64,000 bases of DNA. Origin: a virus. The notes under the pieces are model-generated. The model worked only from the letters and a program-made list of their open reading frames with translations, was not told where the DNA came from and ran no database searches. Below are positions 4,511 to 63,796 of this stretch, in pieces (position 1 is the stretch's first letter; every line of letters begins with the position of its first letter). Location: IMG/VR virus record IMGVR_UViG_3300023192_001558, positions 1-64,000 of that record; one strand, given 5' to 3'. Both the position numbers and the translations under genes were made by a program.

Positions 4511-4541
4511 CTAGGAGGATTTCCTCCTAGCTTTATGCCGT
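4511..4541 (+). terminator. terminator with TTATGCCGT motif
   Basis: CTAGGAGG and CCTCCTAG (4511-4530) form a stem. TTATGCCGT (4533-4541) follows immediately. It ends the internal-head operon. Confidence 0.75.
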
Positions 4542-4561
4542 ATATGTATGATGGGATATGC

Positions 4562-4835
4562 GGTCATTGGTTATCACGCGGGTTGTTGACGTAACATGTG
4601 TCTTCCTGCCAATTCGCAATTGATAACAGGGTGTAGGTTTTGGGTTGGGCTATTTACCTACACGCCTCTTTTCCAACGCACCATCATAGCACGGTGTTCT
4701 CTGGTAGGTTTTTTTACCTGATTTTCCCTACCACTGTACGGTTCCTGGACAGACCGTCACACCTGTAGCTGTTGACCACCAGTGTGGTCGCTGAGAGGGA
4801 TGGGGTCGTAGGGGCCCCATCCCTACTTATGCCGT
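4562..4835 (+). ncRNA. candidate structured non-coding RNA between two terminator motifs
   Basis: This gap has no credible reading frame but many local stems: GTTATCA/TGATAAC (4570-4576 with 4621-4627), GTGTAGGT/ACCTACAC (4631-4638 with 4656-4663), TGGTAGG/CCTACCA (4702-4708 with 4727-4733), ACGGT/ACCGT (4738-4742 with 4753-4757), GACCAC/GTGGTC (4774-4789), and a closing GGGATGGGG/CCCCATCCC stem followed by TTATGCCGT. A second pairing, AGGT/ACCT (4706-4709 with 4716-4719), competes with the TGGTAGG stem. A small phage RNA or a long regulatory leader would both fit. Expression is not shown. Confidence 0.4.
4797..4835 (+). terminator. terminator with TTATGCCGT motif, in the gap before the tail operon
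   Basis: GGGATGGGG (4797-4805) pairs with CCCCATCCC (4815-4823). TTATGCCGT (4827-4835) follows. No gene ends here, which implies a transcript from the non-coding region, or read-through from the internal-head genes, that stops at this point. Confidence 0.7.
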
Positions 4836-4901
4836 CGGGGATGGTATGAATATAAATACCAGCCCATTAATTATGATTAGTATTAACCATGGAATGATAT
4901 C

Positions 4902-6437
4902 ATGCCACGTATAGCGTTAGATTGTGGTGATAGTTACGATAGCGTCATACGCCCAACTGTCATCCAAGTAATAGATAAAGTAAAGAAAGTCACCGGTCTA
5001 AGTAACGTGAAGACTCTATTTACAGGTGATCCTCAAAACACACCTCAGATTGGTGGCAGTCTAAATGGGGAGGCTAAAGATGTTTCGTTTTCAAATGAAG
5101 AATACTTACAACTAGAAGTAAGAACGCAATACGTCGATTCGGATATGTTGACTAACAATGTATTTGCACGAGGTAATATTCCTTTATTCAACGATCCTGA
5201 ATTAGGTGTAGTGGTAACACCAGTGGTGGGTCATACGCAGGTTACCATCAGTGTTAAGTATAAGGCACAGAGTAAGAATAGCGCTGAGCGGTGGATAAGC
5301 GAAATCAAGCGCCGTACCGCCCAAGGGTTTAAAGAACTTATCCATGAAAGTGATTATCATTATCTCATCCCTAAAGAGATCCTAGTTATCTTAGATCAGA
5401 TCCATCAGCGACGTGAGAATGTAGCGCCCTATGGTGAAGACCTTAACACGTACTTAAATAAACACTTCCACCCTAAAGTCACGTGGTTGTCTAACCAAAG
5501 CGGACAGCGTAAAGCACTAGGTGTGCGTGAACGTCAAACCAATATCCTAGGGTATTTCGATTTTGAATCAGTACCTGAACTTGAGAAAGGGGAAAACGGT
5601 AATTGGATTAGTACGTTTGATTACGTGGTGCAGTTTGACAGACCCCACTCAGTGGTAATGCAATATCCTTTAGTAGTACACAATCAACTATTGGATCCTC
5701 GTTTCTTTGATGATTCGGAAAACTTCAACCTTAATTTAGAGCTGTACTTAAGTACAGCTTTTAATCAGGGATTAGATGTAATTGCACATCGCCATCGTCT
5801 TCCTGCCTTATCTACTATTATGGGGTATTCCGTTCCAGCCTTTGATGAGTGGTTACCTACTAGCGTCCCTATGGGTACCAGTACTATGGCGCGTATTTTA
5901 CTTGCGGTCGATGAGCAGAACCCTCGCTACTTGTGTAACATTGAAGAGCTGGGAGACTTTGCGCTAATTGATGAAGTGATAACCTATTTGAAAGAACGTC
6001 ATGAGTTTGCAACGGTGCTAGGCGCGTGTCCAGTATTCTTTAGCCTCTACCAAGACCATACTCGTATGTCAGATAGTGTGTTAGCTATGGATGAGGAAGG
6101 TAATTTATTTACCACCGTAGATCTTTCTTTACGGCGAGTATATCACCTGCGAGTAGGTGTGTATAACGACTTAACGTTACTTAATCAAGAGACGTTGGAA
6201 GACATCCGTATCAATGGTCGTTTTGCTCAGATATTACTGACGGCACTTGAACCTCAATTAAAAGATGACCCTTTAATTGAATTGTTACCTGATGGTCGTA
6301 TGCCTAAGCGTCAATTCTGGGACGCTATTGCAAAGATTAAAGGAACAAATGCCATGTACAAAAACAAGATAGAAGTATCGCGGTTTACTGTAGCCAGTTT
6401 AATGTTAACGGCCAACCGCCCTTCTCAGTACGCGTAG
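4902..6437 (+). CDS. putative tail/baseplate structural protein
   Basis: This 511-residue protein is soluble with mixed alpha/beta character and no membrane segment or catalytic motif. It is the first of four tightly packed genes (gaps of 9 and 2 bases, then a 13-base overlap) of the size and order seen in phiKZ-group structural operons. A purine-rich GGAATG lies before the start. A baseplate or tail role is inferred from operon position only. Confidence 0.6.
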   Translation: MPRIALDCGDSYDSVIRPTVIQVIDKVKKVTGLSNVKTLFTGDPQNTPQIGGSLNGEAKDVSFSNEEYLQLEVRTQYVDSDMLTNNVFARGNIPLFNDPELGVVVTPVVGHTQVTISVKYKAQSKNSAERWISEIKRRTAQGFKELIHESDYHYLIPKEILVILDQIHQRRENVAPYGEDLNTYLNKHFHPKVTWLSNQSGQRKALGVRERQTNILGYFDFESVPELEKGENGNWISTFDYVVQFDRPHSVVMQYPLVVHNQLLDPRFFDDSENFNLNLELYLSTAFNQGLDVIAHRHRLPALSTIMGYSVPAFDEWLPTSVPMGTSTMARILLAVDEQNPRYLCNIEELGDFALIDEVITYLKERHEFATVLGACPVFFSLYQDHTRMSDSVLAMDEEGNLFTTVDLSLRRVYHLRVGVYNDLTLLNQETLEDIRINGRFAQILLTALEPQLKDDPLIELLPDGRMPKRQFWDAIAKIKGTNAMYKNKIEVSRFTVASLMLTANRPSQYA

Positions 6438-6446
6438 GAGTAAACT

Positions 6447-7817
6447 ATGCCTTTAATGACACCCCCAAAGCCAGATGCACGTACACGTACCCAGATCGAA
6501 GATAAAGCAAAGACGATCAAAGACCTGGTTACACCTATTACGCATCCAGAAGAAGCTCAGAGAGCACATCTTGAAGAAGTGATAGATACGTCGTATTTAC
6601 CGACAAACTCTTTACTAGCGCACGTAGAGGGCTCAGAATGGACGGTTAACTATTACGGTCAAGTTTTAACTAACGGATCTGAGGCAAACCCCCAAGCTTT
6701 AACACAAGATGCAGTACATCAGCAGTATCGTCTAATCACCGGTCTAGCTATTAAAGTAACCAGTGAGATCTCACAAGAGCAGAACGCTGAAGACGGGACA
6801 TTTACTGTATCAGGCGCAGCCACCACTCTACCAGGTCTAGTGCCTAATACGGGTGATATGTTCACTGCCGATGTAGGTGATGGTCGTGTTGGTGTATTCA
6901 CAATAACCAGCTCACGCCGCATGAGTATGTTAAGAGACACGGTCTACGGTATTGAATACCAGATGACGTCTTTCTTAACCGGTGAGGTAGAACAAGATTT
7001 AAGTGAGAAAGTTGTTGAGACGCGACATTTCAACAAAGATTATTTACTTAACGGTGAAGATCCTTTTTTAAGTACCAGCGATGCGGTTACCGAGAAAGAC
7101 CTTAAATCTGATTACTACACGTTAATTCAACATTACCTTCAAGCGTTCTATAGTAGAGAATACAAAACAGTACTACTACCTGATAGTAACGGTAATACGG
7201 CATCGGTGTATGATCCCATGGTGATGAAGTTATTCCATTTGATCATTTCACGTAATGACGTGTTTGGTATGGAATACCCTACTATTAAACAAGTAGGTGG
7301 TGACGTTGAAACGGACACCCTCACGGTATGGGATGCACTACTTAAGCGTGAGCCTGACCTTTTACGCTTTGCTGCAACGCAATATCGTAAAGTCCCAGCC
7401 TCTGCCTTTTCCGTTCAACCGTTCTTCTCATCGATCGCACTAACGGGAATTGAGGAGGTCATTTGGCCCGCCTCTGAACTGACGCACAAAGAAAAACAAG
7501 CGGGTATTAAACGTAGCTCGCTTATCGATGCGTTAGAGGATGAGGGTGCTGATAACTATCAAACGCCTGATTCTGTAGATTTCTACGAACCAGATATGGA
7601 TGGCTACTATGTATTTAGTAAGCCGTTTTATGATGGTGATACGGAGTCTATGTCTAAGTTAGAATACATGGTTGATCAGTATCTAGATGGGGATAGTCTG
7701 CGCTTAGGTGATATTAAAGCTATCCTAGAGAAGCTTTATCAGGCCACACCACTTCAGCAGTATTATCACATACCAGTGGTATTACTACTGCTTAAAGTCT
7801 TTGTTAGGAATTTATAA
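6447..7817 (+). CDS. putative tail/baseplate structural protein
   Basis: This 456-residue protein has a TAGGAG ribosome-binding site 7 bases before the ATG. The N-terminal ~45 residues are charged and probably extended. The middle (about 95-185) looks beta-rich (alternating V/T/G segments). No family recognised. It sits in the four-gene structural cluster, with a 2-base gap to the next gene. Confidence 0.6.
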   Translation: MPLMTPPKPDARTRTQIEDKAKTIKDLVTPITHPEEAQRAHLEEVIDTSYLPTNSLLAHVEGSEWTVNYYGQVLTNGSEANPQALTQDAVHQQYRLITGLAIKVTSEISQEQNAEDGTFTVSGAATTLPGLVPNTGDMFTADVGDGRVGVFTITSSRRMSMLRDTVYGIEYQMTSFLTGEVEQDLSEKVVETRHFNKDYLLNGEDPFLSTSDAVTEKDLKSDYYTLIQHYLQAFYSREYKTVLLPDSNGNTASVYDPMVMKLFHLIISRNDVFGMEYPTIKQVGGDVETDTLTVWDALLKREPDLLRFAATQYRKVPASAFSVQPFFSSIALTGIEEVIWPASELTHKEKQAGIKRSSLIDALEDEGADNYQTPDSVDFYEPDMDGYYVFSKPFYDGDTESMSKLEYMVDQYLDGDSLRLGDIKAILEKLYQATPLQQYYHIPVVLLLLKVFVRNL

Positions 7818-7819
7818 CC

Positions 7820-8386
7820 ATGGCTAGTAAACCCAAACACTCTAATGCATTTAAACTGTTTAACTATCCCTTTACCATTTGGGTAGCTAACATGTATATG
7901 GTGTCTGAAGTTGAAGCAAGAGAAGTCGGTACTTTTTCAACCGGTAATATGGCAGAAGACCAACAACTTGCCCAACAAGAATGCCGTCGCATGGTAACCA
8001 TTTCTAAGATGGTAGAAATCGTAGAGATGGGTGGGAGCTTCAGTTTCATTAACGGTGAAGACGCACAACGCGCCTATGACATCATTGTCGGTCACTTAAG
8101 CGACTGGGTGGACGCGATCAATAATCGTGTTAACATTCGTCGACCCCCTAAAGATGACCTACGTCAGCTAGATGCATTGGCGGCAATGATCTATAAGAGT
8201 GCACGTATTCGCATGGTATCTGATACGTCTGTACCTAAGTTAGTACAGAAACTATTGAATATGTCACCAATGGCTACCCCTCAGAAACTTGTTAAGGACA
8301 GTGTAGCTAAGGATCACAAACACCCCATCACCGATATGATAGCGGATGTTGGCGAACTTAGGGATATAAGACGATGGCGGGATTAG
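7820..8386 (+). CDS. putative structural or tail-assembly protein
   Basis: This 188-residue protein is mostly helical. Its N-terminal ~25 residues, FKLFNYPFTIWVANMY, are aromatic-rich. No domain recognised. It overlaps the next gene by 13 bases, so the two are probably made together. Its size and place before a large tail-type protein would fit a small baseplate or tail-completion component, but this is not proven. Confidence 0.55.
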   Translation: MASKPKHSNAFKLFNYPFTIWVANMYMVSEVEAREVGTFSTGNMAEDQQLAQQECRRMVTISKMVEIVEMGGSFSFINGEDAQRAYDIIVGHLSDWVDAINNRVNIRRPPKDDLRQLDALAAMIYKSARIRMVSDTSVPKLVQKLLNMSPMATPQKLVKDSVAKDHKHPITDMIADVGELRDIRRWRD

Positions 8387-9810
8387 TAGATGAAACGGCG
8401 CTTTATAACGATGTCATTGATGTCATTACCACGCAGTATGACGACGTGGACGAGCGCAAGCGCCCCGATAAACACTATCGTTATCGTTTAGAACTTTACG
8501 TTGGTGATACGCCTTACGAGGCGATTAAAGTAGTCGCCGTTGATGTACAGCGTGACTTTCAAAACGAGTTTAGTGAATCTCTTATTGTTGAAGCGGTATT
8601 AGGTGTGGGCACATACGCCCACGCCATCTATCCTAATAAACAAGGACTCACTGCTAAGCTTTATCGACAGTTGGTATTGACGGCAGCTAACGGTAAAATT
8701 GTAACAGATAGCGCTGAGGAGTCGTGGGATTATCAATGCATCATCGTAGGGGATCAGTCCCCGTCAGTCGTGGCATCTACTGAGGCAACATCAGACCAGG
8801 AGACCGGAGATCGTTCAGATGTTATTAACGTAGAGTTACAACTTATCGAGCAGATTGTTGATGAGTTTCGTGTTGTAGAGGTAGGTGGGATCTTTAAAGA
8901 CTGCACGGTAAAGCAGATACTTACGCTATTCTTCGCTAACGTACAGCGTCCTGAAACACCCCCTAGTTCGTTAACGGTAACCTCTGAGGATTATCTTGAA
9001 TGGCGTCTTAAAAACCTTGTAAGTGGCGCACACATCATAGAACCAGACAATACGCGTGTCTATGACCACATCGTTATACCTCACGGTACGCGGTTGGTTG
9101 ACTTGCCTAATTATCTGCAGAAAACTTATGGTGTTTATAAGACGGGGATGGGGTATTTCTTCCAAAAGACTATATGGTTTATCTTTCCCGCCTATCATAC
9201 ACGTCGTTATGACAGTGTTGAACAAACTCTCACTATAGCTAACTTACCTGCTAATCGAATGCCTGGGGTAGAAAAGACATATAAGGTCAACGACCCCATT
9301 AAACATTACGGTAAGGTTTATATGTTGGCTACAGGGGATGTGGTGCAGAAAGACCATAGTGAGCGTCGTCAGATGAATGATGGTAATGCCTATTACCACG
9401 TCAATGCAGACAAGGTTATGGATGTGTTCAGTACTACCAGTGCTAACGTAACCACCATTAATGACGAAGACCATGAAGTCCAAGCTGCAGTAGAGAGTCG
9501 TATCCATACTAACTTCCTTAAGTTAAGTAAAGATGCCATTACGCATAACGCGTTTGTTGAAAACAGCAGGCTATCTAGACAAGTAGGCTCTCATGTTCAA
9601 ATACGTTGGGAGAATGCAGATATTGACCAGGTGTATCCTGGTATGCCTGTGCTGCTACTCTACATCTTAGATGGTAACGTGGCTAAACTTTACGGTACAT
9701 TACAGCGTATCGACCAGGACTCTACCGCTATAGAACCTGGACCTACCGAACACCGTCATTTAAGAAACGCGGTTATTACCGTTTGGGTAGAGCGTGATAA
9801 AACCGATTAA
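8374..9810 (+). CDS. putative baseplate/tail hub-like structural protein
   Basis: This 478-residue, mainly beta-type protein is the last of the four-gene structural cluster. Its layout (an N-terminal beta domain, a long acidic linker around residues 125-150, and a second domain with YVGDTPY- and VGGIFKD-like segments) is reminiscent of phage baseplate hub or wedge proteins, but no diagnostic motif supports a specific name. AGGGA precedes the start, inside the upstream gene. Confidence 0.5.
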   Translation: MAGLVDETALYNDVIDVITTQYDDVDERKRPDKHYRYRLELYVGDTPYEAIKVVAVDVQRDFQNEFSESLIVEAVLGVGTYAHAIYPNKQGLTAKLYRQLVLTAANGKIVTDSAEESWDYQCIIVGDQSPSVVASTEATSDQETGDRSDVINVELQLIEQIVDEFRVVEVGGIFKDCTVKQILTLFFANVQRPETPPSSLTVTSEDYLEWRLKNLVSGAHIIEPDNTRVYDHIVIPHGTRLVDLPNYLQKTYGVYKTGMGYFFQKTIWFIFPAYHTRRYDSVEQTLTIANLPANRMPGVEKTYKVNDPIKHYGKVYMLATGDVVQKDHSERRQMNDGNAYYHVNADKVMDVFSTTSANVTTINDEDHEVQAAVESRIHTNFLKLSKDAITHNAFVENSRLSRQVGSHVQIRWENADIDQVYPGMPVLLLYILDGNVAKLYGTLQRIDQDSTAIEPGPTEHRHLRNAVITVWVERDKTD

Positions 9811-9816
9811 CCTAAA

Positions 9817-10005: not shown

Positions 10006-10036
10006 GGGAAGACTTTCGGGTCTTCCCGTTATGCCC
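10006..10036 (+). terminator. terminator with TTATGCC motif
   Basis: GGGAAGAC (10006-10013) pairs with GTCTTCCC (10020-10027) around TTTCGG. TTATGCCC follows at 10029. Confidence 0.75.
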
Positions 10037-10061
10037 TTAAGGAAACTAAAGGTAAAAAATC

Positions 10062-13133: not shown

Positions 13134-13160
13134 GGAGGGCTTCGGCCCTCCGCTTATGCC
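13134..13160 (+). terminator. UUCG-tetraloop terminator with TTATGCC motif
   Basis: GGAGGGC and GCCCTCC close a TTCG loop (13134-13151). TTATGCC follows at 13154. Confidence 0.8.
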
Positions 13161-13184
13161 TGAATTTAAATAGAGAAATGGTTT

Positions 13185-14205: not shown

Positions 14206-14231
14206 AGAAGGGTTAACGCCCTTCTTTTTTT
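14206..14231 (+). terminator. classical intrinsic terminator
   Basis: AGAAGGG (14206-14212) pairs with CCCTTCT (14219-14225) and runs into seven T. GCCGTC follows, so this one combines a T-run with a degenerate form of the TTATGCCGT motif. Confidence 0.85.
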
Positions 14232-14289
14232 GCCGTCAATGTTGTATTTAACAGCCCTTAGGGATCTTATAATACTAAGGAGAGTGACT

Positions 14290-16489: not shown

Positions 16490-16506
16490 TGACTAAATAG
16501 TTAACT

Positions 16507-16536
16507 AAAGTAGGGCTAGTCCCTACTTTATGCCGT
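16507..16536 (+). terminator. terminator with TTATGCCGT motif
   Basis: AAAGTAGGG (16507-16515) pairs with CCCTACTTT (16521-16529) around CTAGT. TTATGCCGT overlaps the stem end at 16528-16536. Confidence 0.8.
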
Positions 16537-20221: not shown

Positions 20222-20929
20222 ATGAGACGATTACTTACCATCAGCTTTACTCGTGCTAACATTGATGTTTTGATTGAGAGACTTGAAGAAAAGAAGGTAT
20301 TGGCAGGCGCTATTCGTGATATTCTAACAAGTCAACGCGATCAGTGCTTCAATGATGCCGCCGAGGATCCCCACCCCACTAAACGGGCGTATGGGGAGGT
20401 AGATAAGGCTGTCAAGTCTTATGTTACCAACAAGCTCCACTACGTGACTTTTCGACGTTTTAATGCTTTCTATAATACCTACATGCGTATTATAGATGTT
20501 ATCATGGATGTGTTTGACAAAGTAGGTCTTAAACCTACTCGACGTAATCATTTTGACATTACCATTAACATCGATGAGAAGCGTAATCGTGATATCCACG
20601 AACTTTATCGTGGTCAAGCAGCTTTTAGCTATTTAGCGATGGATAGAGAAAGGGATGTAAGAACCGGGATAGTGTATTGGATTGTTAACTTAAATCAATA
20701 CGGTAGTCATCTTGGTAAATTACTCGAAGAGACTAATACCATAGAAGATAAGCTAGATGCCATGGAGGCCATGTTAGATCTCTATACTGACCACGCCGCA
20801 ACAGCTAAGGAATTGCTAGACGTCGGTGATAAGGGCCAGGAAATCCATTTCCCCGCCGAACCGTTAAATAAATGCCTTGATGGCATTGTTAGACTTCGCG
20901 ATACGTTGATAAGCAGTGAGGATCGGTAA
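20222..20929 (+). CDS. hypothetical helical protein
   Basis: This 235-residue charged, helical protein has no recognised motif. It starts after ACAGGACAC. The end of the gene forms the 5' side of a terminator stem. Confidence 0.6.
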   Translation: MRRLLTISFTRANIDVLIERLEEKKVLAGAIRDILTSQRDQCFNDAAEDPHPTKRAYGEVDKAVKSYVTNKLHYVTFRRFNAFYNTYMRIIDVIMDVFDKVGLKPTRRNHFDITINIDEKRNRDIHELYRGQAAFSYLAMDRERDVRTGIVYWIVNLNQYGSHLGKLLEETNTIEDKLDAMEAMLDLYTDHAATAKELLDVGDKGQEIHFPAEPLNKCLDGIVRLRDTLISSEDR

Positions 20930-20948
20930 CGGTCCTCACCTTATGACG
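20916..20948 (+). terminator. terminator overlapping a stop codon, variant motif TTATGACG
   Basis: GTGAGGATCG (20916-20925) pairs with CGGTCCTCAC (20930-20939) around GTAA. The loop and the right-hand arm contain the stop codon region of the previous gene. TTATGACG follows at 20941. Confidence 0.65.
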
Positions 20949-20960
20949 ATAAAGGACCAG

Positions 20961-22184
20961 ATGACCATGCGTAATGTTAAACTACTCTTGGATAGAGGAC
21001 GTCTGACTGAAGAACAATTAGAACAATTCTCATTAGTTAAAAGGCTGTTAAGACAGCGTTGTCAGACTTATCTATTTAACCCGCAACACGCCAACTCCAT
21101 TACCGCTGGCTATACGCCAAGCGTCGAGGATATATTAAAGCGTGGTATTAGACAACCTAATGAACTCCCTGCTAATAGAACGCTATTAGAGATAGAGAGG
21201 GTGCGTCAAGAAGATAAAATTAAAGCAAATGCTAAAAACCAAGAATGGCAACTCAAAGCAAGTGAGTTATATCACCGTGAGTTATATAAAGCCATCGATA
21301 TTGCATTAACTGAAAACCCTTTAAAAGCTATAGGGGTCGAGATACCTGATCTAGTTAACGTCCTTTACCATCCTAATGTAGATTTTAAGAAGTTGAGTAA
21401 ACTAGTACAGCAATCAGACGCACTAACCGACGGCATTGGTAGATTTGTTTTGCGTGAGCAGAATCAAGGACGTCTGACTAAGGTAGATGTTAAACGTCAA
21501 AACATGCAGACAGTTTTAGGTCAGCTAGGTAAAGATACCATAGATGAATTGTTACCGCTCCTACTTATACAACAAACCACCGACACGGGGATGGTTGTTA
21601 AACGTCAATCGGCGGAGATCAAATTTAGACGTCTTTTAAGCTACAACGTTAACTACGTTAGCCAAATCATAGCTACTCTAGGAGATAACACACCATATAA
21701 GCGCCTGACGGGCATTATAGGCGTGTTAGAGACCCTCACCTACATTACCGTATATCGATTATTCTGTATCCATCAGGACGAGGTTAGGGTGCGTGTAATG
21801 AGTAAGTGGCGTACGCAGAGTCAGCACAGCTTACATGCGGCTATGCAAGATGTAGATATAAATTTCAATGTGCTATCTATCTGGATGGAGTCGTTCAAAG
21901 AGAAAGTACAAGAAATCATCATCCAACAACTGGATTGGAATTATATAAGACCTGTGCGACGTGCATTAGAAGAACATCAGGAGCGCCTACCTCTACACGA
22001 ACGGTCGGTCTTAGGTGTTGTTTTAAATCACGGTTTTCAATTCGCACAGTTTAAACTTCTGGCTGAGGGTAAGCTAGCCAGCCGCAGTATTATAACTCAG
22101 TATCTATACGGGAGTTATATCCCTAACGAACTTAGCCGGTTATTGCTAAGTTCTTCTATGACAACGGAGCCTGTTCAATCATGA
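20961..22184 (+). CDS. hypothetical helical protein
   Basis: This protein of about 407 residues is rich in Leu, Arg, Gln and Glu and nearly all helical. No domain recognised. Three in-frame ATGs compete: 20943, 20961 and 20967. AAAGGA at 20951-20956 supports 20961 or 20967. Its stop overlaps the start of the HDOD gene (ATGA at 22181), so the two are co-translated. Confidence 0.6.
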   Translation: MTMRNVKLLLDRGRLTEEQLEQFSLVKRLLRQRCQTYLFNPQHANSITAGYTPSVEDILKRGIRQPNELPANRTLLEIERVRQEDKIKANAKNQEWQLKASELYHRELYKAIDIALTENPLKAIGVEIPDLVNVLYHPNVDFKKLSKLVQQSDALTDGIGRFVLREQNQGRLTKVDVKRQNMQTVLGQLGKDTIDELLPLLLIQQTTDTGMVVKRQSAEIKFRRLLSYNVNYVSQIIATLGDNTPYKRLTGIIGVLETLTYITVYRLFCIHQDEVRVRVMSKWRTQSQHSLHAAMQDVDINFNVLSIWMESFKEKVQEIIIQQLDWNYIRPVRRALEEHQERLPLHERSVLGVVLNHGFQFAQFKLLAEGKLASRSIITQYLYGSYIPNELSRLLLSSSMTTEPVQS

Positions 22185-23011: not shown

Positions 23012-23066
23012 ACGGCATAAGCTAACCACCTAGCCGTGAGGCCGGGTGGTTAGGCTTTTATGCGGC
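23012..23066. terminator. bidirectional terminator with motif on both flanks
   Basis: CTAACCACC (23022-23030) pairs with GGTGGTTAG (23045-23053) between two convergent genes. The left flank carries ACGGCATAA (the motif on the minus strand, 23012-23020). The right flank carries TTATGCGGC (plus strand, 23058-23066). So the motif follows the stem in each direction of transcription. Confidence 0.85.
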
Positions 23067-27497: not shown

Positions 27498-27602
27498 AAC
27501 GCTTCATTAACAATCTGGTTAAAATGCGCTTGCGTATTACAAAACAAAAAAAGACAATGCCGGTTTAATTACCGTTTTAAATATCACTTAGTGTGGTTAA
27601 GT

Positions 27603-27650
27603 AACACCTGGGGACTTAAGGTTCCTGGGTGTTATGCCGTCTATGCCGTC
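27603..27650 (+). terminator. terminator with duplicated TATGCCGTC motif
   Basis: AACACCTGGGGA (27603-27614) pairs, with several G-T wobbles, to TTCCTGGGTGTT (27622-27633). TTATGCCGT (27632-27640) follows and is repeated at once as CTATGCCGTC (27641-27650). A small CGGT/ACCG hairpin lies upstream at 27561-27574. Confidence 0.7.
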
Positions 27651-28954: not shown

Positions 28955-30571
28955 ATGGATCAATATTTATTTACACACATACACGAGCAACATGTGCCTA
29001 AGTTCAATCCCCTTTTGGCGGAAGGATTGGTCGTAGAGCAGATGCGTGGAGTCGAGGAATACATCGACCATGTGTGGAAATGTGCAGCAAGAAGCTTTCC
29101 AGAGGGATTTACGTACGATGGAGAGTACAAACGAGCGACACCAGAGCAGCAGTATAACTACATGACGCGCAAGCGTTCATCGCGTGCTGAGTTTAATCTA
29201 GCACCTAGTGACTTCTACGCTGTTCAATTTAACTTCAGCTATCAAGGCCAGAAGTTATTCCCACGTCTGTTACAACTTCCGTTTGTTGGACCAGGTGGTT
29301 TAATACGTGTAAATGGTTCTAAGTATGTTATCAATCCTGTCATGGTTGATAATCTTTTCTCTGTTGATGATGGTAAACTATTCGTTGCGTTAACACGTGA
29401 CAAACTTACCTTTGAGAGGGTCACGCACAACCTGGTCATCGATGGTGTAAAAGAAACCTTAAGTATCCCATGGAGTACTATTTACCATTTACGCCAGAAA
29501 GATAAAAACTCTAAGATTATCTACATGGGTGGACTCCGCCTAAATATGGTAAGTACCTTAGGTCATTATCTGTTTTGTAAATACGGGGTAACGGAAACCT
29601 TCAAACGTTTCTGCGGTATGGATGTAGTGGTGGGTGATCGTAACACGATTAACGAGCAAACCCACCCTAAGTCTGAATGGATGATTGTAGAGAGCTTACA
29701 TTTACAGCCTATTAGCGTTAAGGGTAAGGGCTACAGACCTACTCAAATACGTGTAGCGTGTAAACGTGATCAACGCAGTCAACTATCAGACAACCTACTT
29801 GCAACCTTCTTCTACTTAGCAGATCATTTTACTCAGCGTATTCGTCCGGAGTACATTGACGATACACGTTTATGGCGTGTGTTGATGGGACATGTTATCT
29901 TCAAGAGTAAAGTGAATGAAGGAAGGCTCTTAGAGGACATCGACGCTCACCTGGTGAGTCTAGATTACTACATTGATGGATTGGTACAGATGAACCTTGA
30001 GAAGGAAGGGGTAGAGTGTAAAGACATTTACGCACTATTTGCTTATATCATCGAAACCATGAATGAGATTATAGTCACAACGGACGTTTCTAACCTATAC
30101 GGTAAGAAGCTAACAACATTGAGATATATATTACTAGATGTGATAAAGGCTATATTCAATTTCACCTTCAAGCTAAACTCCAATAAAAATAAAACACTAA
30201 CGAGTAAAGACATCGAGAAACTAATGGATAAGTATCTTAAGTTTGATACCATCCGTAAGATTAACACCGGCCATGGTGAAGTAAGTTCACTATCTACCGC
30301 AGGTGATAACCTTATGTTTAAGATGACTAACAAAGTAGTGCCTCAGACCGATGCGACTGGCTCTCGTAACGGTACGAAGACTAAACCATCTAGGTTACTG
30401 CATGCCTCGCTAGCAGAAGTATGTAGTTATGGTAATCAGCCTAGTTCCTGCCCAACAGGCCATGGTCAGATTAACCCTTACTTAAATGTAACACCTGATG
30501 GTGAGATTATACCTAATCCAGAGTTTGCCGATTTGATTGACTCAGTACAAGCTAAAATTGCACGCACGTAA
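28955..30571 (+). CDS. phage RNA polymerase beta subunit, N-terminal half (phiKZ-type split polymerase)
   Basis: This 538-residue protein corresponds to the first half of a bacterial-type beta subunit. GPGGLIRVNGSKYVINPVM (about 111-129) matches the beta-family G.fiinG.ervi motif. Near the end, SRLLHASLAEVCSYGNQPSSCPTGHGQINPYL matches the beta segment around the rifampicin pocket (usual LHPSHYGR.CPIETPEGPNIGLI). In phiKZ a protein with this content, gp123, is part of the non-virion RNA polymerase; the remaining beta and beta' parts are encoded elsewhere, outside this window. GGAGG precedes the start. This half lacks the catalytic centre. Confidence 0.82.
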   Translation: MDQYLFTHIHEQHVPKFNPLLAEGLVVEQMRGVEEYIDHVWKCAARSFPEGFTYDGEYKRATPEQQYNYMTRKRSSRAEFNLAPSDFYAVQFNFSYQGQKLFPRLLQLPFVGPGGLIRVNGSKYVINPVMVDNLFSVDDGKLFVALTRDKLTFERVTHNLVIDGVKETLSIPWSTIYHLRQKDKNSKIIYMGGLRLNMVSTLGHYLFCKYGVTETFKRFCGMDVVVGDRNTINEQTHPKSEWMIVESLHLQPISVKGKGYRPTQIRVACKRDQRSQLSDNLLATFFYLADHFTQRIRPEYIDDTRLWRVLMGHVIFKSKVNEGRLLEDIDAHLVSLDYYIDGLVQMNLEKEGVECKDIYALFAYIIETMNEIIVTTDVSNLYGKKLTTLRYILLDVIKAIFNFTFKLNSNKNKTLTSKDIEKLMDKYLKFDTIRKINTGHGEVSSLSTAGDNLMFKMTNKVVPQTDATGSRNGTKTKPSRLLHASLAEVCSYGNQPSSCPTGHGQINPYLNVTPDGEIIPNPEFADLIDSVQAKIART

Positions 30572-33057: not shown

Positions 33058-33103
33058 ACGGCATAAAGTAGGGTAGGTGATCCTACCCTACAACTTATGC
33101 GTT
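33058..33103. terminator. bidirectional terminator with motif on both flanks
   Basis: GTAGGGTAGG (33068-33077) pairs with CCTACCCTAC (33082-33091) around TGAT. ACGGCATAA on the left (33058-33066) and TTATGCGTT on the right (33095-33103) place the motif 3' of the stem for both convergent genes. Confidence 0.85.
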
Positions 33104-38738: not shown

Positions 38739-39041
38739 ATGCAAAGTGACCATATAAGAACGTTAAGTACCTTTGCCCACACGCTCGATTATGAGTGTGA
38801 AATAGAGACCTGTAAAGGTAAAGTCTCACTTACCAGTATAAGTGAAGCATCACGGGAAAAACTGTATGGTAGCCATGCCTGGCCATGTCACTGCAAGGAA
38901 TGCGGCGCGCTCTACATCTCTAATGTACCATTACCTTTAGAGATAACCGGTCAAGGAGGAGCTCGACGCTCCTCTTATAGCCTTGAGATCGCTAGGAGAA
39001 AGATGCTTGTAATCAAGCTCAATAACAACAGGTTAGGTTAG
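38739..39041 (+). CDS. small zinc-binding-type protein
   Basis: This 100-residue protein has a Cys pattern (CEIETC near 25-30, then CHCKECGALY near 49-58) that suits a zinc ribbon. The rest is basic. AAGGTG precedes the start. It lies 2 bases before the resolvase gene, so a nucleic-acid role is plausible. Confidence 0.6.
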   Translation: MQSDHIRTLSTFAHTLDYECEIETCKGKVSLTSISEASREKLYGSHAWPCHCKECGALYISNVPLPLEITGQGGARRSSYSLEIARRKMLVIKLNNNRLG

Positions 39042-40020: not shown

Positions 40021-40051
40021 AGCCAGGGTACTGTCCCTGGCTTTATGCCGT
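40021..40051 (+). terminator. terminator with TTATGCCGT motif
   Basis: AGCCAGGG (40021-40028) pairs with CCCTGGCT (40035-40042) around TACTGT. TTATGCCGT follows directly at 40043-40051. Confidence 0.85.
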
Positions 40052-44381: not shown

Positions 44382-44403
44382 TTAAATAATAGACTGTTTA
44401 TAG

Positions 44404-44431
44404 GAGGGGTCAGAAGACTCTTCTTATGAAC
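44404..44431 (+). terminator. stem-loop with variant motif TTATGAAC
   Basis: GAGGGGTC (44404-44411) pairs, with wobbles, to GACTCTTC (44416-44423). TTATGAAC follows. A weaker example of the motif family. Confidence 0.55.
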
Positions 44432-44480
44432 AGTGTTATGCTGTATTTATTTTTTTAACACATTAGGTGAGGATAGAGGG

Positions 44481-46334: not shown

Positions 46335-46367
46335 AAGAGGATGCGTAATAGCATCCTCTTATGCCGT
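46335..46367 (+). terminator. terminator with TTATGCCGT motif
   Basis: AAGAGGATGC (46335-46344) pairs with GCATCCTCTT (46351-46360). TTATGCCGT begins at 46359 inside the stem end. Confidence 0.85.
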
Positions 46368-46610: not shown

Positions 46611-47567
46611 ATGTTTATAATTGTTATTAAGCAAGAGTTTAGAAATCAGATTCAAACGCGTTACATCACAACAGATCAGCTAAAGACCACCGCTAATAAA
46701 AAGCACCCTTCTATGGTGCAGCTTGAGATAGATGGTAACAATGTTAATATCTTAGATCTTGACGGTGATGTGAACATTAGCATCTACACGGCTACCGGGA
46801 TGAAGTTAAATGAAATAACCTACACGGATAATACTTCATCTGGACTACCAGAATCAATCCACTTCTCACCGGATGATCCTTATCTAGATAAACCATTTGA
46901 AGGTAAAGACCAACCCTTCCCTGAACCGCTTAAATACATAGAGACACTTCAAGAGACATTAAACTCATGTCTGTTAAGTCGTTGGGATGAACCCCATGCA
47001 TTCTTTAGGGGGTCTTATTCCCTAGATGTACCTATGTTGCGTAAAATAGTTGCTTCAGTATTTATCGAAGGTGTGGATAGAACCAGTCAGCATTTAACTA
47101 CAGCGAAGTGTCTATTAGCTAACGTGACGAAACTGATTGAGCTACTGCAAGATATAAAAGAAGGAAGGCGAGAAAGTCACTTAATATTAAACGATGGATA
47201 CTGGATCAACCCCGCCATACATGCTAGGGTTAAATTCCCACCGTGGTTAACTCACAATCTTGGTACGCTTATTAAGTTAGAGCAGGATAAATTATCGGCA
47301 ATTACTTCTGATAAGTTAAACGGCATTAGTGTATATACGGCTGATATAGAGTTTATCAAACGTGCATCTTTATCTGATAGAGATCGCATCTTCTATGGCG
47401 GTATGTGGTTTATTGACAAAACTAGCAATTTTAATGATAACACGTTTAAGTCAATAGTAGACGATCATCAAAAAGCAGTAATGGCTGATAATGATAAAAT
47501 TCTAACACAGTTAATTGAGTTAGATGAGATTAAAACTAATTTGAAATCTTACATCAACAACAATTAA
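46611..47567 (+). CDS. hypothetical protein
   Basis: This 318-residue protein has no recognised domain. Its N-terminal ~60 residues are beta-like (VQLEIDGNNVNILDLDGDVNI). The rest is helical and charged. AAGGACAG precedes the start. It is the last plus-strand gene before the minus-strand fibre region. Confidence 0.6.
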   Translation: MFIIVIKQEFRNQIQTRYITTDQLKTTANKKHPSMVQLEIDGNNVNILDLDGDVNISIYTATGMKLNEITYTDNTSSGLPESIHFSPDDPYLDKPFEGKDQPFPEPLKYIETLQETLNSCLLSRWDEPHAFFRGSYSLDVPMLRKIVASVFIEGVDRTSQHLTTAKCLLANVTKLIELLQDIKEGRRESHLILNDGYWINPAIHARVKFPPWLTHNLGTLIKLEQDKLSAITSDKLNGISVYTADIEFIKRASLSDRDRIFYGGMWFIDKTSNFNDNTFKSIVDDHQKAVMADNDKILTQLIELDEIKTNLKSYINNN

Positions 47568-47598
47568 CGGCATAGGTGAGAGGGTTATCCCTCTCACC
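47567..47598. terminator. convergent terminator, motif on the minus-strand side
   Basis: GGTGAGAGGG (47575-47584) pairs with CCCTCTCACC (47589-47598) around TTAT. ACGGCATA (47567-47574) is the motif read on the minus strand and follows the stem for the hydrolase gene. The plus side has only CTCTTTAC. Confidence 0.8.
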
Positions 47599-47601
47599 TC
47601 T

Positions 47602-48510: not shown

Positions 48511-48546
48511 ACGGCATAAATGGGACCCTATAAAAGAGCCCCATTT
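48511..48546 (-). terminator. terminator with TTATGCCGT motif (minus strand)
   Basis: On the minus strand AAATGGG and CCCATTT (48540-48546 with 48518-48524) form a weak stem. TTATGCCGT (48519-48511) follows it. It ends the fibre gene at 48558. Confidence 0.65.
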
Positions 48547-49260: not shown

Positions 49261-50397
49261 GTGGGAAGAGGTATAGATTTAACGGGACGGGAGTTCGGTA
49301 AATTAACCGTAGTAGATCAGGCTCCTAATAAGGAAGGTCAGAGGGGTAATTGGTGGAATTGCTTATGTGATTGTGGTAATGCGAAAGTTGCTTCGGCTAA
49401 AAGTCTAAATGCAGGCGATACCCAAAGCTGCGGTTGTCTAAATAAGAACGATCTAATAGGTAAGGTCTATGGGAGGTTAACCGTCAAAGCAGAGGGGGTT
49501 GAAAAGAAAGGTGATAAACGCACATGGGTTTGTGAATGTAGTTGTGGATCAACTACTACTGTTACGACGAGTGATTTAGTAACCGGTCATACGCGCAGTT
49601 GTGGATGTTTACAGAAGGAGCGGGCGAAAGAAGCGAATAAGACGCACGGCTATTCACGTAGACGCCATCCCCTCTACGCACGTTGGCTAGGTATGAGAAA
49701 TCGATGCAATAATCCAAATGACGATTATTACGACAACTATGGAGGTAAAGGTGTAAAAGTCTGTAAGCGATGGGACTCATTTACTAACTTCTTAGAAGAT
49801 ATGGGCGAGTGTCCGGAAGGTCATACTCTGGACCGTCGCGACAACGATGGCGACTATACGCCTGAGAATTGTAGATGGGCAAGCTCATCCGAGCAGGCCA
49901 TGAATAAAAGCACGACGGCTATGGTTGAATACAATGGAGAACTTATAAAAAGGAGAGAGTTAGCCAAACGTTTTGGCATTGATCCGGATAGACTACGTCA
50001 ACGGCTAGAGATGGGATGGTCTGTTGAAAAAGCATTAACTGTCGAAATACCACCCCAGGTAAAATGGAGAGTGGTTGTTGGAATAAACATAGTAACAAGG
50101 ACAATATATTTTAGCAACAAGCTATCCAGGTTCGCTAAAGATCATAATCTTAATCTTAATATTCTTCGTAACAATGCCACCCGCAGGGGATTAGCAGAAG
50201 GAGAGTGGGCGGTTAAACGTATCGAGGATGATACACCTTGGAATGATTTCAGGGGATGTAGCGGGATACCAGAGGACGTTATCTTAAAGCAAGCTGATGA
50301 ACCGGATATTATCTTTTCTAACGCGAGAGAGGCTTACAGGTACCTTGAGCGGAGTTCTCTGTTAGATAAGGAGTATACATTAAAAGTATTTGAATAA
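49261..50397 (+). CDS. HNH homing endonuclease with N-terminal zinc-ribbon repeats
   Basis: This 378-residue protein starts with two SCGC-type repeats (GREFGKLTV...CDCG...SCGCL, about 7-62, and YGRLTV...CECSCG...SCGCL, about 72-120) seen in phage-encoded free-standing homing endonucleases. The HNH-like domain follows (about 135-210: HPLYARWLGMRNRCNN, YGGKGVKVCKRWDSFTNFLEDMG, HTLDRRDNDGDYTPENCRWA). The C-terminal third may carry DNA-binding repeats. I chose GTG 49261 because AAAGGTGG precedes it by 5 bases. It is on the opposite strand to all surrounding fibre genes, with its own promoter-like motif, as expected for a mobile gene. Confidence 0.85.
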   Translation: MGRGIDLTGREFGKLTVVDQAPNKEGQRGNWWNCLCDCGNAKVASAKSLNAGDTQSCGCLNKNDLIGKVYGRLTVKAEGVEKKGDKRTWVCECSCGSTTTVTTSDLVTGHTRSCGCLQKERAKEANKTHGYSRRRHPLYARWLGMRNRCNNPNDDYYDNYGGKGVKVCKRWDSFTNFLEDMGECPEGHTLDRRDNDGDYTPENCRWASSSEQAMNKSTTAMVEYNGELIKRRELAKRFGIDPDRLRQRLEMGWSVEKALTVEIPPQVKWRVVVGINIVTRTIYFSNKLSRFAKDHNLNLNILRNNATRRGLAEGEWAVKRIEDDTPWNDFRGCSGIPEDVILKQADEPDIIFSNAREAYRYLERSSLLDKEYTLKVFE

Positions 50398-50432
50398 CGG
50401 CATAAAACCATGGGGCTTTACAACCCCATGGT
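50397..50432. terminator. convergent terminator, motif on the minus-strand side
   Basis: ACCATGGGG (50407-50415) pairs with CCCCATGGT (50424-50432). ACGGCATAA (50397-50405) gives TTATGCCGT on the minus strand, downstream of the stem for the fibre gene at 50482-51474. The plus side has only a weak CATGCTGAC. Confidence 0.8.
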
Positions 50433-50481
50433 CATGCTGACTATGTTTCTTTTTTTGTTTCTAACCTAACTGATCAGAATC

Positions 50482-55106: not shown

Positions 55107-55128
55107 AGGGGCTGGATATCCAGCCCCT
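55107..55128 (-). terminator. stem-loop between fibre paralogues
   Basis: AGGGGCTGG (55107-55115) pairs with CCAGCCCCT (55120-55128). It sits 10 bases after the fibre gene stop. No TTATGCCGT. Confidence 0.65.
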
Positions 55129-58002: not shown

Positions 58003-58021
58003 GGATAAATACTCCAAAGTT

Positions 58022-58043
58022 AGCCGGGGTTATAACCCCGGCT
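58022..58043 (-). terminator. perfect inverted repeat between fibre paralogues
   Basis: A 22-base perfect palindrome (arms AGCCGGGG and CCCCGGCT) lies 11 bases after the stop of the next gene. Likely a terminator stem; no motif follows. Confidence 0.65.
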
Positions 58044-58053
58044 ATAAGTTTAA

Positions 58054-60933: not shown

Positions 60934-60960
60934 GAGTAGATACTCCTAATTAATAAAACG

Positions 60961-61551
60961 TTAGACATATTGAACTTTAACAGTCCATAGGTCAGATTGT
61001 GCTTTTGTTAGAATGGCCATGAACGTCTGCTCATTAATGCGTAGGTCGGTGGCGCTACGTGCTCCGTCTATTAGCCAATCGCCTGCGTTCAATGCGATAG
61101 TTATCTCACCAGCACTGTCTGCTAAACGGGCAATTTCAAACTGGTCACCAACAGCATACATAGAGGCATCTATCGTGTAGGTAACGTTAGCTGCCGCTGC
61201 ATAATCCATGCGAGTCATGATACGTGGAGTGTTAAGTGTGCGAGAACCTGAATTGTAGTAATACAGAGGTTTTAAGTTCTCATTAGGTACATTACTTAAA
61301 CCCACATCAGCCTTGGTAGTCCCATGGGGATTCCTTGCTTGAAAGTGAGCAGCCAATATGGCATCGTAGTTCTGACCTAGCTTAACAATGTTACCATCGT
61401 TGTCCTTGGTATAAAGAATTAAATCCTTTAAATTAGCCGCCAATTCACCCTCGTCCAACAACGGTGCGGTTGGCACTGCGTTGGGGGTAATCGAGCGACG
61501 TATTTTCAATGGATTCAAAGTCGTGCCACCGGGGGTGGTTACTGAGCCCAT
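60961..61551 (-). CDS. tail-fibre adaptor with shared N-terminal module
   Basis: This 196-residue protein carries the same N-terminal module as two other genes in the region (IRRSITPNAVPTAPLLDEGELAANLKDLILYTKDNDGNIVKLGQNYDAILAAHFQARNPHG, residues ~17-77). The C-terminal domain is beta-rich. AAGGAG precedes the start. It lies directly before the long-fibre genes, so it may connect one of them to the baseplate. Confidence 0.65.
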   Translation of the reverse strand: MGSVTTPGGTTLNPLKIRRSITPNAVPTAPLLDEGELAANLKDLILYTKDNDGNIVKLGQNYDAILAAHFQARNPHGTTKADVGLSNVPNENLKPLYYYNSGSRTLNTPRIMTRMDYAAAANVTYTIDASMYAVGDQFEIARLADSAGEITIALNAGDWLIDGARSATDLRINEQTFMAILTKAQSDLWTVKVQYV

Positions 61552-61563
61552 ATTAACGTCTCC

Positions 61564-61989
61564 TTATATTCCCGATGGGATTTCAATTTGGGTTGCCGGT
61601 GCGAAGATAGCTTCCAAGTCTGCCTCGCTATACAACCCTAGTGATTCAATAACCGGACGTAGACGAGGGTCGTTTAGATCAATAAACTCTCGCGTTCGGA
61701 TGTTGGTTAGATACTTATAAAGCGTCATGTCTGGCGGTGTGGCGCGTGTTCCTTCCTGCGCCATAGCGTAAATAGTCTCTAATTTATCATCTATGTCTAG
61801 ACGATCTAAGAGAGAGGCAACCGATATAATGTACGTATCGGACTCCACTGCTTCCAAACTTTCTTCTCGATAAACAACAACCTTGGCCGTGGTATCAGAA
61901 AACGTGTGTCTTAAATGATCACCGTCGGCTGGCTGTTCACCAGGTCGACTTAGGTTTTCAGTCGACACTATTGTTTTAACACCACTCAC
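61564..61989 (-). CDS. putative tail-fibre-region structural protein
   Basis: This 141-residue protein starts at GTG 61989; the longer frame is unlikely because TAGGAG lies 7 bases before this GTG and the start overlaps the upstream stop (GTGA). C-terminal residues look helical. No family recognised. It is coupled to the neighbour at 61986-62570. Confidence 0.55.
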   Translation of the reverse strand: MSGVKTIVSTENLSRPGEQPADGDHLRHTFSDTTAKVVVYREESLEAVESDTYIISVASLLDRLDIDDKLETIYAMAQEGTRATPPDMTLYKYLTNIRTREFIDLNDPRLRPVIESLGLYSEADLEAIFAPATQIEIPSGI

Positions 61990-62570
61990 ATCTCGTCTCC
62001 TAAAAGATAATCGCAGCTTAGTGTTTGACTTGACCCCCAACTGTATAAGTTAGCGTATTCAATCTTAAGCTGTGTTTCAAAGTGAATACCGCCTTTGAAA
62101 AAGTTTTGTCGGTATTCATCTGTAATAGCTTCCCTTCCTTTATAAAAGAAAAAACCATTAGCTGAATCCTGACCTGAACCCCGCATCCAATAACCCCAGA
62201 GTAGATGTCGATAGCTCCAGCTGTTAGTATAAGTAACACTCTGCTCACCATCAACGGTGATGCGTATACGCATGGGTTGGTTCATTCCGTGCAGCGCACT
62301 TAAAATCCCCTTCCCATCAAGCTGTAAGTAGAGTTTAAACTCTCCTGCACCACCTCTATCTGTCCTAAAGCTATCACGTGATAATGTGGCGTTATGTTCC
62401 GTATCTGGTGTTAGTGTACGGTATTGCTCCTGATATGCATTGTCTTCTCGACCAAAGACATTAGTAGCAAAAATCACATCACGTAAACCGAAAGCTGGAT
62501 AATAAAAACGTTCTATTATCTCTTCGCCGTCGTCGGATACAGGTAGTAGTGTATATAAATCATAAGGCAT
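61986..62570 (-). CDS. putative structural protein of the tail-fibre cluster
   Basis: This 194-residue beta-rich protein has many aromatic residues (YSW, WGYWM, FFFYKG). ATG 62570 was chosen over an in-frame GTG at 62579 because AAAAAGG lies about 8 bases before it. No family recognised. Overlaps the next gene's GTG by 4 bases. Confidence 0.55.
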   Translation of the reverse strand: MPYDLYTLLPVSDDGEEIIERFYYPAFGLRDVIFATNVFGREDNAYQEQYRTLTPDTEHNATLSRDSFRTDRGGAGEFKLYLQLDGKGILSALHGMNQPMRIRITVDGEQSVTYTNSWSYRHLLWGYWMRGSGQDSANGFFFYKGREAITDEYRQNFFKGGIHFETQLKIEYANLYSWGSSQTLSCDYLLGDEM

Positions 62571-62655
62571 GTTTGACACCTTTTTATATTAACAACATTA
62601 AGACGATAAACTGCCTCTAATGTACACGTACTACTGTAGACTCATAGGATATTTT

Positions 62656-63744
62656 TTAGAAGCTCTCTGGACGGTCAACGTAGTTGCGCCATTCTGTATT
62701 AACTTCTTCGATCTCTTGAAGAAGATTCTTGGTTTCAGTCTCAGCGAGACGTAATTCTTTATCCGTAAGGTCTGGGTTCTTACCCCACAACCATCCTGTT
62801 CTGTATGTTTCCCCATTAAGACAAGAAGTTGTCATTCGTGTTACGCAAAGATGGACGTCATCCCAATTTTGCTCATTATCGTCAAGTTCGATATACAATG
62901 CATTACGCAGTGGGTTAAGGTATTCAAAATAGTATTTGATACGCTCACCCGATAGCTCTGAGCCATGTAGATGTATTAACGTTACATCATTCTCTATCTC
63001 TTTGTAAGACAGGGAGTAACGCGCCACTCCTTTAGCTGAGATTATCTCAAACTCAACAACGTTGATAGCATTTTGATCGATAGAACGATCAATCAACAGA
63101 CGCAACGCACCCGTGTAATCCCCAGGATAGAAAGCCGCTTCATCTTGAGTGATCAATTTAGTACGACCCACATCAGACGTTTTCTTGGCAAGTTGTTTAA
63201 GGATTTGCGTGACAAATGCCTCGTTAGACACGTCTACAGCGTCTTTAACGTTACCAATACTTTCTACCAGTTCACTTAAGCCAACTAGGTCGTACCCGCT
63301 GTGCTTGTGGTCTTCTGGTGGATAAGCCGTCTTCTTGTTTTTTATATCATCCCAGTAGACTGTCATGTCAGACACACTTAACGTGGATAATACTTCATGG
63401 ATAGCTGCTGCTTCTGAGGCATAACGCTCACCTACGGTTTGGTAGCTAAGCATCAATTCGTTAACGGTTAGGTTCTCGTTTAACAACGCAACGCCCGTCA
63501 CAACTTCATGACCGGTATCCATGGTGGCTTCTTGATACAAGTAAACTAACTTATAATCGTCGCCAGGTACAAGAGGGTTGCCGCCTTTAGGGGTAAGGGT
63601 AAAACCTTGCGCGTAGAAAGGGGTATGGGTGGGCACGATGATCTGTTTACTCACCGTGTCTAAGGTGACAATTTCACCTGAGATTGCGTTGGTTGATGCC
63701 ACCGCTGTAGGATCAAAGGGGTACTTTTGTAATTCAGGTAACAT
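62656..63744 (-). CDS. putative tail-fibre base protein
   Basis: This 362-residue protein has an N-terminal ~75 residues that look like a fibre-anchoring beta domain (IVTLDTVSKQIIVPTHTPFYAQGFTLTPKGGNPLVPGDDYKLVYLY). A shaft with HKHSGY follows, then a mixed domain with a charged helical end. AAGGAGCG precedes the start. HKHSGYD is common in phage tail fibres. Inferred, not proven. Confidence 0.6.
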   Translation of the reverse strand: MLPELQKYPFDPTAVASTNAISGEIVTLDTVSKQIIVPTHTPFYAQGFTLTPKGGNPLVPGDDYKLVYLYQEATMDTGHEVVTGVALLNENLTVNELMLSYQTVGERYASEAAAIHEVLSTLSVSDMTVYWDDIKNKKTAYPPEDHKHSGYDLVGLSELVESIGNVKDAVDVSNEAFVTQILKQLAKKTSDVGRTKLITQDEAAFYPGDYTGALRLLIDRSIDQNAINVVEFEIISAKGVARYSLSYKEIENDVTLIHLHGSELSGERIKYYFEYLNPLRNALYIELDDNEQNWDDVHLCVTRMTTSCLNGETYRTGWLWGKNPDLTDKELRLAETETKNLLQEIEEVNTEWRNYVDRPESF

Positions 63745-63763
63745 AACCCGCTCCTTAGTGAGA

Positions 63764-63796
63764 TTGCATAAATGGGTAGGGATTTACCCTACCCAT
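63764..63796 (-). terminator. terminator with variant motif TTATGCAAT (minus strand)
   Basis: ATGGGTAGGG (63772-63781) pairs with CCCTACCCAT (63787-63796). On the minus strand TTATGCAAT (63772-63764) follows it. It ends the partial gene at 63818. Confidence 0.7.

Follow-up and report, generated by a model that had tools for sequence, protein, structure and literature searches.

A stem-loop followed by a fixed nine-nucleotide word at gene ends of phiKZ-like giant phages: a probable terminator of a phage-encoded RNA polymerase

The DNA considered here, hereafter called the window, comprises positions 1–64,000 of the IMG/VR virus record IMGVR_UViG_3300023192_001558 (109,453 bases as a whole) and carries on both strands a recurrent element, namely a stem-loop directly followed by the word TTATGCCGT or a variant of the general form TTATGYYGT (TTATGTCGT is one written form of this stem-adjacent word). 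The major capsid protein encoded in the window matches 202 phage records; among the matches listed (60), identity ranges from 29 to 40% and the hosts include Erwinia, Xanthomonas, Klebsiella, Serratia, Pseudomonas and others, all for giant phages. Each of the ten window proteins scanned has a PHROG family match, and several are head and packaging proteins. Relatives in IMG/VR were taken by capsid identity, i.e., G001, G002 (190,650 bases) and G006 at 100%, G003 and G004 (189,382 bases) at 89%, and G005 at 85%. With phiKZ proteins as tblastn queries, i.e., gp55, 68, 71, 73, 74 and 123 of the non-virion RNA polymerase (nvRNAP), gp80, 149, 178 and 180 of the virion RNA polymerase (vRNAP), chimallin and PhuZ, 12 of the 12 proteins tried were found in G002 and in G004, and gp123, 149, 178 and 180 in the window's own shorter record; judged by this similarity, both phage polymerases are encoded in the window lineage. 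The homologue of gp123, the beta-like nvRNAP subunit binding TATG in phiKZ, lies at 28955–30571 (+).

Genes were called as longest open reading frames (ORFs) and stems were predicted with a home-made scorer; the P values are rough, since a stem contributes two sides that depend on each other. An earlier note on this DNA had placed the word directly 3' of stem-loops at sixteen sites, and at all sixteen the predicted stem indeed ends 0–2 nt before the word. On the plus strand, TTATGCCGT follows the stem-loops at 4508–4541 (motif 4533–4541), 3' of the ORF 3129–4463, at 4796–4835 (motif 4827–4835), which forms a second, tandem unit, and at 16506–16536, 40021–40051 and 46335–46367. The 285 nt between the two tandem units (4542–4826) hold no called gene and could hold a small RNA. 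Variants are found at 10006–10037 (TTATGCCCT), 13134–13162 (TTATGCCTG), 27601–27649 (TTATGCCGTCTATGCCGT), downstream of the major capsid gene, and 20916–20949 (TTATGACGA), a weaker member overlapping the called start of the ORF 20916–22184, all on the plus strand. At 44393–44444 (+) the unit itself stands but not the word first assigned to it, as the long stem (44393–44434) runs through TTATGAAC and a better motif, TTATGCTGT, lies at 44436–44444. Two bidirectional stems between convergent genes have a copy each way, as had been claimed, i.e., 23012–23066 with TTATGCCGT on the minus strand (23012–23020) and TTATGCGGC on the plus strand (23058–23066), and 33058–33103 with TTATGCCGT on the minus strand and TTATGCGTT on the plus strand (33095–33103). 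The remaining minus-strand units are at 47567–47599 (CTATGCCGT) and 50397–50433 (TTATGCCGT), both at convergent junctions, at 48511–48544 (TTATGCCGT) and at 63763–63796 (TTATGCAAT), a weak member which is present but whose motif (63763–63771) had been given one base off. Over the 40 nt preceding the word, minimum free energy at the 16 sites lies between -9.2 and -25.5, whereas 1000 random 40-mers drawn from the window average -5.3 (sd 3.3).

The exact word TTATGCCGT occurs 10 times in the window for 0.43 expected, a number reached by none of 100 shuffles, 15 times in the full 109-kb record, 26 times in G002 and 23 times in G004, as well as 19 and 6 times in G001 and G006, two other records from the same species as the window, where copies were counted only. 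The one-mismatch count in the window (21 for 15.15 expected, with 14 of 100 shuffles as high) is not significant and uninformative, so the signal resides in the exact word together with its placement beside a stem. A stem ends within 3 nt of the exact word for 15 of 15 copies in the window's own record, 26 of 26 in G002, 7 of 8 in G005, 7 of 9 in G003 and, in G004, 20 of 23 by score or 22 of 23 by eye (the copy at 132405 has none), compared with 2–3% of random positions. Among 300 anagrams of the word, the mean number of copies was 1.5 in G002 (maximum 9) and 1.6 in G004 (maximum 8), and about 3% of these copies adjoin a stem (14/446 and 11/468, respectively). The reversed word TGCCGTATT occurs 11 times over five records, 3 copies lying within a genuine TATGCCGT copy and 3 of the remaining 8 adjoining a stem (two are apparently the same site in G000 and G002); because of these overlaps and stem-side copies, this control is small and partly contaminated, as are the reversed-pattern counts given below. 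The enrichment thus extends to the rest of the record and to the relatives, where the earlier note had proposed to look for it. For the coding-sense strand, low counts of TTATGC were obtained in G004 (33 vs 56.0, sd 5.3) and phiKZ (75 vs 99.2, sd 7.3), with no clear depletion in G002 (45 vs 54.1, sd 6.6); the complete TTATGYYGT shows no depletion in G002 (5 vs 3.9) or phiKZ (4 vs 3.9) and stands at 0 vs 2.6 in G004, all these counts including any codon-pair effects.

Respective to genes, all 15 exact copies of the record lie 3' of a gene on the same strand, 9–161 nt after it (363 nt for the second tandem copy at 4827), with the next gene co-directional in 9 cases and convergent in 6; none is wholly within a called ORF, and four overlap an ORF edge by 1–7 nt. 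Considering each side of a hairpin separately, the motif is present on 48/67 (G002) and 48/79 (G004) of the intergenic sides lying in the path of a gene, 0/39 and 3/45 of those in no gene's path, and 8/206 and 9/210 of the sides of coding hairpins. At gene-end sides, it occurs on 27/32 (G002) and 27/38 (G004) when the next gene is opposite and on 21/35 and 21/41 when the next gene is on the same strand; the motif therefore tracks gene ends and does not require a downstream gene start. As such, two features of an intrinsic terminator are present, i.e., a stable stem-loop and a placement where genes or operons end, oriented with the gene, but the U-tract directly after the stem is not, sides with a T-run only numbering 7/72 in G002 and 10/78 in G004, in line with the claim that most stems lack one. 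As for a late promoter of phiKZ type, the TATG core is present in G002 and G004 but the placement upstream of a gene to be transcribed is not, 6 of the 15 exact sites facing a convergent gene. Of five T-run terminators previously proposed in the window, those at 14206, 18845, 19575 and 32776 have 7 T each and 17446 has only TTTT. The one at 14206–14237 (+) is of mixed type, its run being followed by GCCGTC, and similar sites (T-run then GCCGTC, or motif then a T-rich run about 10 nt on) occur in G004 at 99811, 110447 and 170472. In the window, stems at 55107–55128 and 58021–58044, by the large paralogous ORFs, have neither motif nor T-run but AACTTGGAGTA and AACTTTGGAGTA, respectively. The suggested division of labour between two terminator classes, one for each of two gene classes or polymerases, found no backing, the motif following 15/36 structural and 22/71 other genes of phiKZ (p = 0.29) in a crude comparison over the first 200 kb, with structural genes hand-listed from the annotation.

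For 19 G002 sites compared with G004, G005 and G003 (35 alignments, seven repeat-family sites left out), the word, selected as exact in G002, is identical in 24 comparisons and changed at 16 of 315 positions (5%), against 24–28% in the flanks and 24% in the stems. Among the 346 stem pairs, 250 show no change, 28 are changed on both sides and still paired, 31 are changed on one side and still paired, and 37 are broken; from these alignments, stems vary across related sites, partly with compensation, and the motif varies little. In an earlier comparison, several sites had a wholly different stem with the same word; the figures of that comparison (motif 1.7–6.4%, flanks 26–33%, stems 14–22%, pairs 438/33/35/43) were replaced because repeat-family stems had been matched to paralogues. 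Near-identical stems, CTAACCACC...GGTGGTTAG or CCTACCTCTACC...GGTAGAGGTAGG, form two families of four each at convergent junctions, located in G002 at 38816, 105825, 133696 and 177582 (window 23022–23053) and at 3874, 44422, 99366 and 181726, and look as if they were copied bidirectional terminators. In G004, two facing stems at 92384–92450 have in common a palindrome, TTATGCCGT-T-ACGGCATAA.

A motif finder given the 20-nt flanks of gene-end stems returned TTATGCCGT with a model fraction of 0.70 in G002 and 0.67 in G004, TTAT[G.54/T.27/A.18]YYGT with a fraction of 0.65 in phiKZ; for AR9 plus phiR1-37 it gave T-rich tails. Sense-side likelihood scores reach 285, 296 and 244 for G002, G004 and phiKZ, against 57–66, 62–71 and 60–78 in six shuffles each, and antisense flanks score 40.5 (n = 53), 39.7 (n = 54) and 102 (n = 129, TATG-like). 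In a uniform test for TATG[CT] near gene-end stems, where isolates were represented by pieces of 42–50 kb except phiKZ (200 kb), sense and antisense sides carry it, respectively, in 45/72 and 1/53 cases for G002, 46/78 and 3/54 for G004, 12/25 and 3/23 for LucasX, 8/16 and 0/8 for RAY, 4/10 and 1/10 for SNUABM_54, 4/18 and 1/19 for pVa-21, and 1/6 and 1/9 for Goslar. The pieces of SPN3US, AR9 (0/17; 1/18), phiR1-37 (0/21; 2/28), T4 (0/11; 2/9) and CBB (1/17; 0/15) have at most one such gene-end side each, and their gene-end tails are mainly T-rich (TTATG on 3/17 sides in CBB). Whole-record counts of TTATGYCGT and its reversed pattern on both strands broadly agree, i.e., PhiPA3 30/6, RAY 14/3, SNUABM_54 16/7, phiKZ 12/4, Goslar 13/7, LucasX 10/4, pVa-21 4/3, EL 1/2, SPN3US 0/4, AR9 1/1, phiR1-37 2/2, T4 1/3 and CBB 3/12, the agreement being weak for Goslar, LucasX and pVa-21.

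The survey was further extended to 46 cluster representatives from 80 of 98 IMG/VR loci with gp123 (7–22 kb, all picked by similarity to a gp123 alignment). TTATG or TATG[CT] is present on 172/394 sense, 52/248 antisense and 86/3228 coding sides, with at least one occurrence in 45 of the 46 lineages, the remaining locus having no testable stem. Leaving out the window lineage, sense sides amount to 165/385 and coding sides to 82/3168; the 385 sense sides divide into 145 with motif only, 37 with T-run only, 20 with both and 183 with neither, and the motif score is 704 against 232–262 in four shuffles. The motif is therefore widespread, is found on antisense sides too in many lineages, and is far from being present at every stem. 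The word, the stem, the gene-end orientation, the conservation and the recurrence in relatives are features of the sequences themselves, and a widespread, sequence-defined 3'-end signal of phiKZ-like phages is real as a pattern, its function being deduced from these features.

We consider it probable, at roughly three chances in four, that each unit is a terminator used by a multisubunit RNA polymerase that the phage encodes, probably the nvRNAP. The hairpin followed by TTATGYYGT would act as an RNA 3'-end signal: the hairpin would fold as the RNA leaves the enzyme, and the word, taking the place of a U-tract, would pause the polymerase and let the RNA go about 7–8 nt beyond the stem, close to the conserved CC|G. 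Termination itself, the polymerase reading the signal and the release point are what we infer here. The preference of the earlier note for a terminator or 3'-end signal over a promoter is upheld by orientation, stem adjacency, convergent junctions and a separate promoter-like motif. Several observations nonetheless weigh against the terminator reading. Motif-less gene-end stems are numerous (27/72 in G002; 220/385 in the 45 other lineages, of which 183 lack a T-run as well), and antisense sides also carry the motif, i.e., 52/242 in these lineages, 19/73 in phiKZ for 37/107 sense sides, and 4/21 on either side in PhiPA3. Despite a gp123 relative, SPN3US has it on 1/25 sense and 0/25 antisense sides, and EL on 2/23 and 0/18. 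The G makes up only 54% in the phiKZ gene-end motif, when the phiKZ promoter strictly needs the G of TATG according to the part of PMC7598289 consulted. Finally, the sequence after PHIKZ298 reads CCAGGGG...CCCCTGG then TTATATTC, with no T-run and no G, and the published RNA may end nearby: as far as the accessible text of PMC8545117 goes, a phiKZ RNA of about 100 nt seen by Northern blot comes from the 3' untranslated region (UTR) of PHIKZ298 and has two stem-loops, the second a possible terminator. The second phiKZ RNA in that text, from the 5' UTR of p40, gave no clear placement.

RNA processing or 3'-end trimming, by which run-on transcripts would be cut or trimmed by a nuclease to the hairpin and a UUAUG tail, appears unlikely. 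Intrinsic terminators release RNA 7–9 nt past the stem, and the conserved word spans just these 7–9 nt; besides, convergent junctions are made of one stem with a signal both ways and leave little space for run-on. A nuclease site would nevertheless be compatible with a stem bearing a short, fixed 3' tail, and the authors of PMC8545117, in the portion available, thought the PHIKZ298 3'-UTR RNA derived from mRNA processing. Very unlikely, in our opinion, are ordinary intrinsic terminators with a poor T-tract, used by a host-type polymerase, where the word would be drift within one clade: TTAT is T-rich, the 20/385 sides with both word and T-run would fit, and predicted terminators are annotated at some of these stems in the LucasX and Goslar records, yet the fixed A and YYGT tail are seen again in genomes with GC contents of 35–59%, the T-rich tails prevail in other phages, i.e., T4, CBB, SPN3US, AR9 and phiR1-37, and motif likelihood is far above shuffles.

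Very unlikely as well is a late promoter, with TTATG as the phiKZ-type TATG start element and the upstream stem incidental or a separate terminator. The word does contain TATG, the phiKZ late promoter with a G start (PMC4666361, in part), but the motif is not tied to downstream genes (in G002, 27/32 sides with an opposite next gene against 21/35 co-directional), all 26 exact G002 copies have a stem, the TATG of phiKZ P119L is, by eye, without such an adjoining stem, and a different promoter-like motif, ACCTA[CT]ATTA, is present. The latter, distinct from TTATGCCGT, lies on the plus strand in 16/16 cases in G002 (e.g., 1828, 14782, 27500 and 138340) and 15/16 in G004. In G002, 14/16 are outside called genes, 10 of them 34–70 nt before a gene start, and 3/16 begin 24–34 nt downstream of the first base of an exact TTATGCCGT (14758, 98038, 138306), while 6/16 are inside called genes in G004. 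It is likely the early promoter of the window lineage and resembles that of phiKZ. No shared late promoter was clear by eye beside the gp119 homologue.

In the excerpts consulted, the phiKZ nvRNAP late promoter is TATG, with G as the +1 start (PMC4666361, PMC7598289), and in the open-promoter structure the non-template TATG sits in a gp123 pocket (PMC12809450). Assuming termination by the nvRNAP, the beta-lobe pocket of gp123 reading the start-site TATG might read TATG again during elongation and make the enzyme pause as the hairpin extracts the RNA; we hold this for doubtful. If true, one pocket of a multisubunit polymerase would serve for both start and stop, possibly coupling termination to re-initiation. 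The window homologue is 32% identical to phiKZ gp123 overall and shares 7 of the 14 compared pocket side chains (S144, F151, K158, K190, H331, S334 and Q466). Among ten gp123 proteins, phiKZ-identical residues number 11 in PhiPA3, 9 in SNUABM_54, 7 in the window, LucasX and Goslar, 6 in EL, 5 in SPN3US, and 4 in pVa-21 and phiR1-37; the match with motif use is imperfect, because pVa-21 (4) has the motif and EL (6) barely, and the comparison is confounded by descent. Against such rereading, the phiKZ stem-side motif may have T or A in place of the G, and the promoter register leaves about 4 nt from the stem to the RNA end, which is not enough for a full hairpin. The CC|G of the word lies at the usual 7–8 nt past the stem.

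Compared with known systems, the unit resembles the bacterial intrinsic (Rho-independent) terminator in its stable gene-end stem-loop, often common to convergent genes, but differs by the U-tract being largely replaced by the fixed 9-nt TTATGYYGT. With the phiKZ late promoter it shares the TATG core, and the window phage has a gp123 homologue, but its word is 3' of gene-end stems, in gene orientation, with the extra conserved YYGT. A T7 class II (sequence-specific) pause or termination site is comparable, as a short fixed word at which a phage polymerase pauses or stops; here, however, it comes with a hairpin and a multisubunit enzyme instead of the single-subunit T7 polymerase. AR9 and phiR1-37, which have related nvRNAPs, also show gene-end stem-loops but with T-rich tails and TATG[CT] on 0/17 and 0/21 sides. 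In the accessible part of PMC5312081, the AR9 late promoter is a different one and earlier-predicted AR9 terminators are mentioned with no such motif; likewise, the available text of PMC9009655 gives 47 predicted LucasX terminators with no such motif, and that of PMC8545117 gives none for its possible phiKZ terminator. The LucasX record has predicted Rho-independent terminators at several such stems, e.g., L019 22025–22073, a stem then TTATGCCGC; in the Goslar record, one such stem bears a putative terminator label. These labels also favour the terminator reading, and the stems are thus not all new; the fixed word is the part for which we found no description. Termination by jumbo-phage multisubunit polymerases is not described in the parts consulted of PMC7598289, PMC4666361, PMC12809450, PMC7618050, PMC5312081, PMC9209446, PMC7824862 and PMC10612078. 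The stem-plus-word motif did not appear in the results of the literature searches made; it could be in print in the main phiKZ transcriptome (10.1128/JVI.01347-14) or the dRNA-seq study (10.1080/15476286.2020.1827785). As far as sequence comparison can suggest, the combination of a stem and a fixed word most likely represents a new version of the intrinsic terminator.

A sequence-defined terminator shared by phiKZ would make termination testable with a purified, structurally solved enzyme. It would also improve the operon maps of giant phages and could give orthogonal terminators. With a TATG core in the word, i.e., the phiKZ late-promoter word read by gp123, promoter-like pausing becomes a testable idea.

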